From: an uncultured bacterium
GTDB lineage: Bacteria > CAIJMQ01
NCBI GenBank assembly: GCA_903821905.1
Contig: CAIJMQ010000047.1
Location: 1 to 14,331, forward strand
Reading direction: 5' to 3'
DNA: 14,331 nucleotides
Made by a program: the position numbers and the translations under genes. Positions 3,428-6,851 of the stretch are shown piece by piece. The notes beneath the pieces are model-generated. The model was not told the DNA's origin. It ran no database searches and was given only the letters and a program-made list of their open reading frames with translations. Position 1 is the first letter of the stretch. Every line of letters begins with the position of its first letter.

Positions 3428-4537
3428 TTAACGGATTTTACCGACAGACTTTCTGCCAGTGTATTCCAGTAAAGCAATTATTATAAATATCACAACCGCC
3501 TGTAGTAAAATTACCATTGCGCCTAATCTGCCTACAGTAGAAAGCAATGTAGCATTTATTCCTATACAGAAAGTTACAAGATAGATGAAAGCAACAGCTC
3601 GACGTTGAGTCATACCAAGCTGTACCAATCTATGCGAAAAATGGTTTTTATCACCCACAAAAAGAGGTTTTTTTCTTACCAGACGAATCAGCATAACTGA
3701 AACAGTATCAAAGATTGGTACTCCTAAGATAAGAATTGGCATAACCACCGGGAATAATGTCTTTTGCCCTTCTGAATAAAAAGTGGAGAGAATAGTCAAA
3801 GTAGCTAGCATAAAACCTATCCACATGCTGCCAGCATCGCCCATAAATATAGAAGCAGGATGCCAATTGAAGATAAGGAAACCAGCAATACAACCGGCAA
3901 ATATAATTAACATAGAAGATGTAAATAGTTGGCAATGAAAAGATGTAATTCCCGCAAAAATAAAAGTTGCAACCAAAGCAACCCCTCCTGCCAAGCCATC
4001 CATATTATCCAAAAGGTTAAAAGAATTCATAATAAGCACCATCCATATAACTGTAAGTACTCCACCCCAAAAAGGGTTAGGCGTAAAAAGGGTTATTCTC
4101 ACTCCTAAGAACACCATAAAAAGAGCAACAAGAATTGAAGAAATAATCTTAACAGAAGCTTGCATTCTCTTGCCTTTTATATCATCAATCAACCCAACGA
4201 GCATAATCAACGTGCCCCCAAAAACAATAGGTAATATTTTATGGATTTCCCTCTGTAAAGGAGGGATTTTTCCAAGAATAGAAGATGGTATAAGTTGGAT
4301 AAGATGGGAAGAATTCCAAAAAATCTTTAAAAAAATGAGGTTTAGAAGTATTGTTAGTATAAAAGAAAAATAAAAAGCTACTCCACCAAGCAGTGGTTTG
4401 GGTAATATATGAACTTTTCTTGCAGAAGGGATATCCAGAACTTTTAATCTTAAAGCAATCCTACGAAATAATGGTGTCAAAACTAAAGATAGAATAAATG
4501 AGAAAATAAAAAGATAAAAGTAAATTATTATCCACAT
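3428..4537 (-). CDS. WecA/MraY-family undecaprenyl-phosphate sugar-1-phosphate transferase
   Basis: This 369-residue polytopic membrane protein belongs to glycosyltransferase family 4 (WecA, TagO, MraY). It would transfer a HexNAc-1-phosphate from a UDP-sugar to undecaprenyl phosphate, the first step of a lipid-linked glycan. Cytoplasmic-loop motifs are intact: LIDDIKGKR (D118, D119), NSFNLLDNMDGLAGG (N171, N174, D177, D180), FMGDAGS (D234) and the HFSHRL motif (H299, H302). About ten hydrophobic segments flank these loops. The order of motifs and the HxxH loop favour WecA/TagO over the peptidoglycan enzyme MraY. The acceptor sugar cannot be read from sequence. Its ATG overlaps the stop of the upstream SDR gene by 10 nt (4528-4537) and has no Shine-Dalgarno of its own, so the two are probably translationally coupled. 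Confidence 0.88.
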   Translation of the reverse strand: MWIIIYFYLFIFSFILSLVLTPLFRRIALRLKVLDIPSARKVHILPKPLLGGVAFYFSFILTILLNLIFLKIFWNSSHLIQLIPSSILGKIPPLQREIHKILPIVFGGTLIMLVGLIDDIKGKRMQASVKIISSILVALFMVFLGVRITLFTPNPFWGGVLTVIWMVLIMNSFNLLDNMDGLAGGVALVATFIFAGITSFHCQLFTSSMLIIFAGCIAGFLIFNWHPASIFMGDAGSMWIGFMLATLTILSTFYSEGQKTLFPVVMPILILGVPIFDTVSVMLIRLVRKKPLFVGDKNHFSHRLVQLGMTQRRAVAFIYLVTFCIGINATLLSTVGRLGAMVILLQAVVIFIIIALLEYTGRKSVGKIR

Positions 4538-5511
4538 TTTTCTTTATTTTTATAGTATTTAATAACATCTTTCAATATATCTTCTAGAGATTTCGTTGGT
4601 TTGAAACCTACAGCTTTAGAGATTTTTGATATGTCAGGTACACGATATCTTAAATCTTCAAAACTATCATCATAAATTTGCGTATATGGAATATATTTAA
4701 TATCGGATTTACTTTCTGTAAGCTTCTTAACAGCATATGCTAGATTAGAAATGGTAACAGCTTCCGGGTTCCCAAGATTGAATATTTCTCCAATTGTATT
4801 TTTACTTTCCATCATAGAAATTAAGTTCCGAACAACATCTGTTACATGTATAAAACTCCTCGTTGAGCTCCCATCGCCATAAACGGTAATTGGTTCACCC
4901 TTTAACGCCTGATTAACAAATCGCGGGATAACCATACCATAAGCTCCCGTTTGCCTTGGCCCTGCTACATTGAAAAGACGAGTTATTACTATAGGAAGAC
5001 CCTTTTCTTTATGATATGCAAGAGCTAAAAATTCATCTATTGCCTTGCTTGACGAATAACTCCATCTTAGTTTAGTAGTTGATCCAAGTATCCTGTCGGA
5101 TTCTTCCTTGAACGGATAATTTTCGTTCTTGCCGTATATCTCAGAAGAAGAAGTAATAAGTACCTTTTTTTTATCTCTTGAAGCCATTTCCAATACGTTC
5201 TCTGTTCCTTCAATATTAATCTTCATGGATTCAATGAGATTATCCATAACATACTTTACTCCAACGGCAGCAGCGAGATGATAAATTACTTCGCATCTGT
5301 CTATTAGTTCCTTGAGAAGGCTCTCATTTAATATTGACCCTTGATGAAAATGTAGTTTTGGATTATTCAAGAGATGCGATATGTTATCTTTACTGCCTGT
5401 AGAGAAATCATCAATTGTCCACACATCATTGTTGCTATCAGATAACAACTGTTCTATTAAGTGGGAACCAATAAAACCAGCACCTCCCGTAACTAAACAT
5501 CTCTTCTTCAT
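4528..5511 (-). CDS. Extended SDR NAD-dependent nucleotide-sugar epimerase/dehydratase
   Basis: The 327-residue protein is a complete extended short-chain dehydrogenase/reductase. It has the Rossmann motif GGAGFIGSHL (residues 9-18), the acidic D34-D35 after beta-2 typical of NAD preference, a Ser-rich strand ITSSSEIYG (119-127) and the catalytic YSSSK (Y152, K156). The NVAGPRQTGAYG and YGDGSSTRSFIHVTDV stretches (181-226) bind the nucleotide sugar in UDP-glucose 4-epimerase and UDP-glucuronate decarboxylase relatives. The substrate is undecided between a UDP-hexose epimerase and a UDP-glucuronate decarboxylase. The gene overlaps the following WecA-like gene, suggesting that the pair makes and loads a sugar for a surface glycan. 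No clear Shine-Dalgarno precedes the ATG at 5509-5511. A TATAAT lies about 40 nt upstream. Confidence 0.88.
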   Translation of the reverse strand: MKKRCLVTGGAGFIGSHLIEQLLSDSNNDVWTIDDFSTGSKDNISHLLNNPKLHFHQGSILNESLLKELIDRCEVIYHLAAAVGVKYVMDNLIESMKINIEGTENVLEMASRDKKKVLITSSSEIYGKNENYPFKEESDRILGSTTKLRWSYSSSKAIDEFLALAYHKEKGLPIVITRLFNVAGPRQTGAYGMVIPRFVNQALKGEPITVYGDGSSTRSFIHVTDVVRNLISMMESKNTIGEIFNLGNPEAVTISNLAYAVKKLTESKSDIKYIPYTQIYDDSFEDLRYRVPDISKISKAVGFKPTKSLEDILKDVIKYYKNKEKCG

Positions 5512-5556: not shown

Positions 5557-5572
5557 GCTATATAGAATATAA

Positions 5573-5610
5573 AAGAATCTGCTGCTCTTTTCAAGGAGCA
5601 GCAGATTCTT
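5573..5610 (-). terminator. Intrinsic terminator of the MC1-like gene
   Basis: A perfect 15-bp inverted repeat (5573-5587 and 5596-5610, loop of 8 nt) is followed on the minus strand by TTTTAT-type sequence (T run made by AAAA at 5571-5574). It lies 36 nt beyond the MC1-like stop codon and separates that gene from the SDR gene. The stem is GC-containing (CTGCTGCTC) and is the strongest hairpin I saw in the window. Confidence 0.88.
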
Positions 5611-5646
5611 TCAAAACCCTTAGGATTAATTAAATATATGTCTCGT

Positions 5647-5943
5647 TTATATTTTGGCCAGTTTATCTACACGCACCTTCTTTACGGAAGGTTTATTAAT
5701 CTTAGCCGGCATCCAGTCCGGTGCATTAGCAGGTTTGTTAACCTTTTCTACTTTACCCTTGAATACATGCACTCTCCATTTGCCATCTTTCTTCCTTGAA
5801 TGCTCTCTCAACTTAATGAGACCTTCGCTATCTTTCAACCCTCTAGTAGCTGCTTTCAACGCAGCAGCTCTTGGAGACCTACCTGTGAATACATGATTCT
5901 CCTTACTGCCTACTCTTAAAGAGTACTGTTTAACTGCGGCCAT
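5647..5943 (-). CDS. MC1-family chromosomal (DNA-bending) protein
   Basis: This small basic protein of 98 residues matches the archaeal non-histone chromosomal protein MC1 (Pfam MC1) along its whole length. It has HVFTGRSPRAAALKAATRG (residues 17-35), IKLRE (43-47), RVHVFKGK (57-64) and the C-terminal signature PDWMPAKINKPSVKKVRVDKL (75-95). In Methanosarcina MC1 binds as a monomer, bends DNA sharply and prefers distorted or junction DNA. The W77-M78 pair corresponds to the tryptophan-methionine pair at the MC1 DNA interface. Relative to my memory of MC1, a few residues are inserted around 51-56, and the second interface tryptophan (FKAW in Methanosarcina) is replaced by lysine (FKGK). Its own promoter, an AAAAGGAGG ribosome site 7 nt before the ATG and a strong terminator suggest abundant expression, as for a nucleoid protein. 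The family call is confident. Its role as a bacterial nucleoid protein is inferred. Confidence 0.85.
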   Translation of the reverse strand: MAAVKQYSLRVGSKENHVFTGRSPRAAALKAATRGLKDSEGLIKLREHSRKKDGKWRVHVFKGKVEKVNKPANAPDWMPAKINKPSVKKVRVDKLAKI

Positions 5944-5950
5944 CTTTGTA

Positions 5951-5959
5951 CCTCCTTTT
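5951..5959 (-). promoter_or_regulatory. Strong Shine-Dalgarno of the MC1-like gene
   Basis: AAAAGGAGG lies 7 nt upstream of the ATG at 5941-5943. It is one of the two best ribosome binding sites in the window, supporting the chosen start and high expression. Confidence 0.85.
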
Positions 5960-6039
5960 ATTAAAAATTAAAACATTTGACAACTAATCCCATGGGTTTT
6001 CTTTAGAATTTATAACCTCCATGCATGCTTGTTTTATCC

Positions 6040-6068
6040 TTTATATCAAAAAGAAGTGGCTTTGGCAA
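6040..6068 (-). promoter_or_regulatory. Promoter of the MC1-like gene (TTGCCA-N17-TATAAA)
   Basis: On the minus strand TTGCCA (6063-6068) and TATAAA (6040-6045) are 17 nt apart. The start site would lie near 6033, giving a leader of about 90 nt before the MC1-like ATG. It sits immediately after the end of the upstream 257-residue protein gene, making the MC1-like gene an independent unit. Confidence 0.6.
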
Positions 6069-6077
6069 GTGTTTTTA

Positions 6078-6851
6078 TTATTTTTCCGCAAAAAGAACGG
6101 AGACTTTTTTAGAAAAATCCTCTATTTTTTTATTATCTGGATTCACTTTTAGTGCTTCTTTTGTATATATTTTAGATTTATTATAATCACCGTTTTCAAA
6201 ATACCACATGGCGGTTGTATAATATGCTTCCTCTTTCTTATTGTGAAAAATAAATTCCAACATCTTGTCCCATTCACCCTTACCGTATACTTTTTCAATT
6301 AATTCTTTGTTCTCTACAATATATCTTACAACAAGTTTATTCTCCTTGTAAGAAGGTAGCATTAACTTTATTAATTTAGCCGATGTTTCGAATAATTCTT
6401 TGGCAGACTCTATTTCTCCCGGCATTTCTTCTCTAACTTTTGCCATCAACTTTTTAAAATCACCTAAAGCTCCCGAGAGTTCTTCATCCTTTCCTTCAAA
6501 CTTTTTTCTTACTATATTTTCGTATTGTTCCAAAACGTAGATATGTTCCTTAAAACTCATCAGTTGATGGAAAATTAAATGTATTGCACGTTCAAAAGCA
6601 ATTTCATGTGTCAAGAACTGATGAGGCCTGTCCAAAAGATTATGAATCAAATCTTTTAAATTCCAAAGGGGTCCTTTATTATCCTCAGTCCCTACCCACT
6701 GGGCAAAATGAGAAAATTTAATTTTCCCTTCTTTCTTGAATTGTTGATATTCTTTTTTAAAGTCCCAATAAGCACTAAAAAATTGTTGAATAGCATCTCT
6801 CAAAAATTCATCTTTTCTTTCCTCTAACCATAGATTCTCTTTTTGTGCCAT
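6078..6851 (-). CDS. Unrecognised helical protein with a C-terminal TPR-like repeat
   Basis: I do not recognise this 257-residue protein as a named family. It has no signal peptide or membrane segment and should be cytoplasmic. The N-terminal 120 residues are predicted helical and rich in Trp, Phe and His (for example FFSAYWDFKKEY at 24-35 and HLIFHQLMSFKEH at 91-103). The middle is charged and helical. The C-terminus (about 207-240) fits a single 34-residue tetratricopeptide repeat: EEAYYTTAMWYFENGDY followed by KALKVNP-like spacing. A GGAGG site 9 nt before the ATG supports the start. It follows lolD by 34 nt on the same strand and is probably the last gene of the lysS-lolC-lolD unit, but that does not define a function. 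The helical front half might bind a partner. Confidence 0.8.
   Translation of the reverse strand: MAQKENLWLEERKDEFLRDAIQQFFSAYWDFKKEYQQFKKEGKIKFSHFAQWVGTEDNKGPLWNLKDLIHNLLDRPHQFLTHEIAFERAIHLIFHQLMSFKEHIYVLEQYENIVRKKFEGKDEELSGALGDFKKLMAKVREEMPGEIESAKELFETSAKLIKLMLPSYKENKLVVRYIVENKELIEKVYGKGEWDKMLEFIFHNKKEEAYYTTAMWYFENGDYNKSKIYTKEALKVNPDNKKIEDFSKKVSVLFAEK

Follow-up and report, generated by a model that had tools for sequence, protein, structure and literature searches.

What is a gene for an archaeal chromatin protein doing among bacterial genes? The question is raised by a contig of an uncultured bacterium (CAIJMQ010000047.1), all 14,331 nucleotides of which were analysed and are referred to here as the window. 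A sequence-only reading had picked out, by eye, an independent gene for the archaeal protein MC1 at positions 5647-5943, without giving its strand. The open reading frame has exactly these bounds and lies on the minus strand. The gene and its immediate surroundings are as follows.

4528..5511, minus strand: SDR protein, an NAD-dependent sugar-nucleotide epimerase/dehydratase (Pfam); downstream neighbour, adjoins MC1 in four genomes
5570..5613, minus strand: intrinsic terminator of the MC1 gene, 18-bp stem with 7 G-C pairs and a T-rich tail
5647..5943, minus strand: gene for an MC1-family chromosomal protein of 98 aa, opening with ATG and with its stop codon at 5649-5647
5951..5957, minus strand: Shine-Dalgarno sequence AAGGAGG, 7 nt upstream of the ATG, read from the sequence
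6040..6068, minus strand: sigma-70-type promoter, TTGCCA-17 nt-TATAAA, giving a leader of roughly 90 nt
6078..6851, minus strand: TPR protein (Pfam); upstream neighbour, adjoins MC1 in four genomes

An MC1 gene in bacterial surroundings

The frame is a genuine MC1 gene, and it is an independent gene of a bacterial genome. Its product scores 81.9 bits (E 4.2e-23) against the Pfam MC1 profile (PF05854), for which the cut-off is 23 bits, and the match spans profile positions 11-95 of 96, which is nearly the full length. No other family matches. A sequence search of the PDB also returns MC1 (1t23/2khl/2nbj) as the sole match (E 3e-18, residues 13-95), with an alignment of 83 residues to the solved Methanosarcina structure. 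In a control run over 14 genomes the profile found matches only in Haloferax and Methanosarcina. The predicted protein has a mass of 11.0 kDa and a pI of 10.8. Together with the synteny described below, the Pfam and PDB matches bear out what had been proposed by eye. An 80-residue antisense frame lies opposite the gene (5654-5896, plus strand) and is open in many relatives; it most likely just mirrors the conservation of the MC1 codons on the other strand.

The surroundings are bacterial, as the sequence-only reading had stated. Pfam identifies RNase Y, YmdB, a class II LysRS, a LolCDE-type (FtsX-like/MacB) permease, the TPR protein and the SDR epimerase, and the partner ATPase of the permease is recognised from its own sequence. 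Three other genomes of the bacterium's family (G001, G002, and G003) have MC1 orthologues with 86-87% identity, flanked as in the window by the TPR/ATPase genes on one side and the SDR gene on the other. The locus is common to four separate assemblies (G000, G001, G002, and G003), and in G002 it shares a single 593-kb contig with a gene for HU.

MC1 is under strong purifying selection. It is better conserved than its neighbours (86% identity versus 71-77%), and its pairwise NG86 dN/dS is lower (0.03-0.06 versus 0.07-0.13). Synonymous sites are nearly saturated between genera, which makes the nearer pair G001/G002 (dS 0.09) the safer source of a dN/dS figure: 0.05 for MC1 and 0.14-0.19 for the neighbours.

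The gene is also a conserved transcription unit of its own. Its promoter was recognised by comparing relatives, and the -35 element, spacer length, and -10 element are all kept (consensus over four genomes TTGYCA-17-TATAAR). A consensus promoter scan passed over it because the scan demands T as the last -10 base. A scan for terminators found two where 0.3 were expected; that of MC1 is the strongest, and its stem is kept in four genomes with changes from G-C to G-U. The promoter, ribosome site, and terminator claimed by the sequence-only reading are therefore present, the promoter and terminator being kept in three relatives. The Shine-Dalgarno sequence is a clear GGAGG in two relatives and less exactly placed in the third. 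Two further conserved stretches were seen, a leader block GGATTAGTT...TTTTAATTTTTAA between promoter and Shine-Dalgarno sequence (5958-6000, minus strand) and TTAATCCTAAGGGTTTT directly before the terminator. Both are possible regulatory elements, and the leader block might perhaps serve as an autoregulatory site.

Could the gene have reached this contig by an accident of assembly or binning that joined archaeal to bacterial DNA? All of the genomes are metagenome assemblies, most of them with short contigs, and the G003 bin does contain a second, unrelated MC1 on a separate, foreign-looking contig. However, each of four independent assemblies has the same genes to either side of MC1, in one case on a 593-kb contig, the promoter and terminator are conserved, and the contigs of other MC1 copies bear bacterial leuS, murA, cimA, and NiFe hydrogenase genes. 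The conserved synteny refutes a chimera for the window gene, and the chance of one is negligible. The other possibility is that the gene is recent cargo of a mobile element, for example a virus or a plasmid. Haloarchaeal plasmids do have MC1 genes, and MC1 has been reported in eukaryotic viruses (PMC5671483). Against this, there are no relatives among 50,697 phage records and none was found in viral contigs, plasmid matches are limited to Halococcus at 32-35% identity, and the gene has a fixed locus among housekeeping genes, with ~86% identity and low dN/dS. A mobile-element origin was rejected on these grounds as very improbable.

The second MC1 of the G003 bin (L137 8130-8504, on the 60.6-kb contig G003:C2) is Methanosarcina-like. 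Its contig carries short unknown frames and a phage-type RNA ligase and has the appearance of a viral or archaeal element binned in error. A search of viral contigs found no relatives of the protein.

DNA-bending residues and predicted fold

The roles of individual MC1 residues in DNA contact and bending have been described (PMC6776556, PMC3928310). Mutants of Arg25, for example, bind DNA more than 100-fold less well (PMC6776556, PMC3928310). Pro75, Trp77, Lys89, and Val92 of the window protein correspond to Pro72, Trp74, Lys86, and Ile89 of Methanosarcina. All of the contact and bend residues (Arg25, Pro72, Trp74, Lys86, and Ile/Val89) are kept in the window protein. In its own numbering, Arg25, Lys30, Pro75, Trp77, Lys84, Lys89, and Arg91 match their MC1 counterparts and Val92 takes position 89. 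Across 18 archaeal and bacterial MC1s, Arg25, Lys30, Pro72, Trp74, Pro76, Lys81, and Lys86 are invariant, and position 89 is I, V or L.

Compared with the MC1 of Methanosarcina thermophila CHTI55 (1t23, 2khl, 2nbj; 93 residues versus 98), the window protein belongs to the same family, is similarly basic and has the same predicted order of strands and helix. The two share Arg25, Lys30, Pro72, Trp74, Pro76, Lys81, Lys86, and Arg88. They differ in the bacterial host of the window protein, in its five-residue insertion in the beta3-beta4 hairpin (KDGKW region) and in four substitutions: Gln23 to Ser, Gln26 to Ala, Phe83 to Ser, and Ile89 to Val. Gln23 and Gln26 are helpers that stabilise the bend. 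In the second bacterial subtype (subtype B, see below) Pro24 is replaced by Ala. The stretch Pro24-Lys30 is wholly conserved in MC1 of Methanomicrobia and Halobacteria (PMC3928310), whereas the window protein reads PRAAALK and the second subtype ARQAALK or ARGAALK. This mismatch places them outside the euryarchaeal MC1 subgroup, but still within the family.

The published MC1 fold is a beta-beta-alpha-beta-beta-beta pseudo-barrel with a hydrophobic LP5 arm (PMC3928310). An AlphaFold model of the window protein (mean pLDDT 88) predicts the same order, with strands at 5-11, 14-21, 42-47, 56-69, and 81-95, a helix at 24-34, and boundaries near-identical to the published ones. A fold search with this template-free model (Foldseek and VIA-align) gave no significant PDB match and listed no MC1 chain. 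Its outcome is taken as uninformative because the sequence search finds 1t23 at E 3e-18.

The retained residues suggest how the protein might act. Most likely its DNA binding depends little on sequence. Into one minor groove it would insert Trp77 and Pro75, and Lys89 and Val92 would contact another, while Arg25 would neutralise phosphates drawn close to each other, producing a sharp bend in the DNA.

Distribution and origin

In the phylum of the window, labelled Ratteibacteria/Omnitrophota, MC1 is present in six of the seven genomes examined, and the one that lacks it is 64% complete. All five genomes examined from a second bacterial phylum (group f77) have it, in two or three copies each, with murA and cimA among the bacterial genes near them. 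No credible MC1 was found beyond these two phyla among ~386 sampled bacterial genomes. A match in G193 (L138 4832-5446; 22.7 bits, near the cut-off) was set aside as chance, inspection by eye suggesting that its frame encodes an FtsJ/RlmE-like rRNA methyltransferase. In G001 a second copy, which belongs to the other subtype, shares its contig with bacterial leuS, and family f2 has the same subtype. The f77-phylum proteins (L003, L009, L028, L031, L033, L047, L048, and L050) fall mostly into two subgroups, which suggests duplication and specialisation. In the MC1 copy of G004 (L007 1501-1758, G004:C159) the frame is interrupted by a stop close to the C-terminus, through either decay or sequencing error; the closely related copy in G005 is intact.

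Among archaea, 230 of 249 Methanothrix relatives have MC1, as do 14 of 29 Altiarchaeota genomes, and it also occurs in DPANN. The family has been described as archaeal, from Methanomicrobia, Haloarchaea, and MG-II, the last via transfer (PMC7613761, PMC8999374), and has been noted in eukaryotic viruses (PMC5671483). The sequence-only view of MC1 as chiefly a protein of Methanosarcinales and Halobacteria omits MG-II (PMC7613761), Altiarchaeota, and DPANN. A literature search found no description of bacterial MC1 or of PF05854 in bacteria, although most subscription journals lay outside its scope, so this is weak evidence.

Where did the bacterial proteins come from? In trees of 58-64 proteins (~95-99 alignment columns), they fall beside the two MC1 copies of the Altiarchaeales archaeon WOR_SM1_SCG. 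The closest relatives are of Altiarchaeota type, not of Methanosarcina type. The window-type bacterial MC1s and both WOR_SM1 copies form one clade (99/95), within which WOR_SM1b branches first, WOR_SM1a next and the bacteria last (99-100/73-75), so that the bacterial proteins are nested among archaeal ones. They split in turn into subtype A (Ratteibacteria, including the window) and subtype B (f2, the second copy of G001, and f77), which would have arisen either by early duplication or by two transfers. Placing WOR_SM1 away from the bacteria, with other Altiarchaeota, is rejected (p-AU 0.0198 and 0.0125).

The WOR_SM1a contig encodes archaeal-type DnaG and LonB and is therefore archaeal. An insertion in the beta3-beta4 hairpin (NKDGTYS / KKDGxWR) is found in most Altiarchaeota, in WOR_SM1 and in all bacterial MC1s of the clade; in the alignment, Methanosarcina MC1 lacks it. 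The WOR_SM1_SCG proteins (L017, L108) neighbour the bacterial clade in the tree and resemble the window protein in this insertion, in a REH motif (LREH/IREH) and in 65-76% identity. They differ in their archaeal contig with DnaG and LonB, in keeping Gln26 and in lacking four extra residues (SEGL) that follow the helix in the window protein. No HU was found in the WOR_SM1_SCG genome by profile search, whereas the window genome has one.

The best reading is a transfer from archaea to bacteria with an Altiarchaeota-like donor, its direction being moderately supported. The direction is not firm because the alignment has only ~95-99 columns and the branch putting WOR_SM1a outside the bacteria has 99/75. 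What if a bacterium was instead the donor of this subtype to the WOR_SM1 archaeon, with spread among two phyla and a deeper origin in archaea? The close subtype does occur in only one archaeal genome, WOR_SM1, at 65-76% identity, the bacterial clade without WOR_SM1a has a support of 99/75, and a tree that joins WOR_SM1 to the Ratteibacteria proteins is not rejected (p-AU 0.105). However, both WOR_SM1 copies split off one after the other outside all bacteria, the hairpin insertion (KKDGxW/KDGTY) is common to other Altiarchaeota MC1s, and the second WOR_SM1 copy is an intermediate sequence. These points make a bacterial donor unlikely. Under the preferred archaea-to-bacteria transfer, an ancestor most likely received MC1 from an archaeon related to Altiarchaeota (WOR_SM1 lineage), and vertical inheritance at a stable locus would have followed.

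A probable role beside HU

The sequence-only reading had taken the expression signals as a sign of an abundant protein, possibly a main nucleoid organiser. A good promoter and Shine-Dalgarno sequence are no proof of high MC1 abundance. The second idea finds no support either. A profile search (PF00216) shows that the window genome has another general nucleoid protein, HU, in the form of a fragment of 71 residues cut off by the end of its contig (5.7e-20). HU is found in five of seven genomes of the window phylum and in all five of the second. Since the window genome and most relatives have a gene for HU, MC1 has likely been added to HU and does not replace it. HU/IHF and MC1 have much in common, as both lie on the concave side of bent DNA, insert hydrophobic residues into the minor groove and neutralise phosphates (PMC6776556). 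They differ in that HU/IHF has an unrelated fold, is dimeric and is a separate gene in the same genomes. MC1 most likely acts beside HU as an accessory architectural, DNA-bending nucleoid protein.

Another possibility is that MC1 has been repurposed in these bacteria, as a DNA-binding specific regulator or protection factor. HU in the same genomes, the altered bend-supporting helix residues and the conserved leader block, as a possible control site, would all fit this idea. What does not fit is that the minor-groove contact residues and Arg25 are all retained, the basicity is high (pI 10.8), no domain has been added and two or three copies are retained in the second phylum. Repurposing is therefore thought improbable, and an accessory architectural role is preferred. 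As a whole, the reading that seems probable is of a true monomeric MC1 DNA-bender, fixed in one small phylum of bacteria and in a second phylum, with an Altiarchaeota-like donor, vertical descent and an accessory role beside HU. Somewhat short of an even chance is given to a bolder version, in which archaeal MC1, through transfer from Altiarchaeota-like archaea, is a standing part of the nucleoid with HU in both phyla, making a mixed chromatin.

The opposite direction has a precedent in the bacterial HU that became HTa of Thermoplasmatales (PMC7613761). An archaeal MC1 that has become fixed in bacteria and is passed down vertically would offer a natural experiment on the interchangeability of architectural proteins, on how DNA is divided between MC1 and HU and on the reasons for the sideways spread of MC1.
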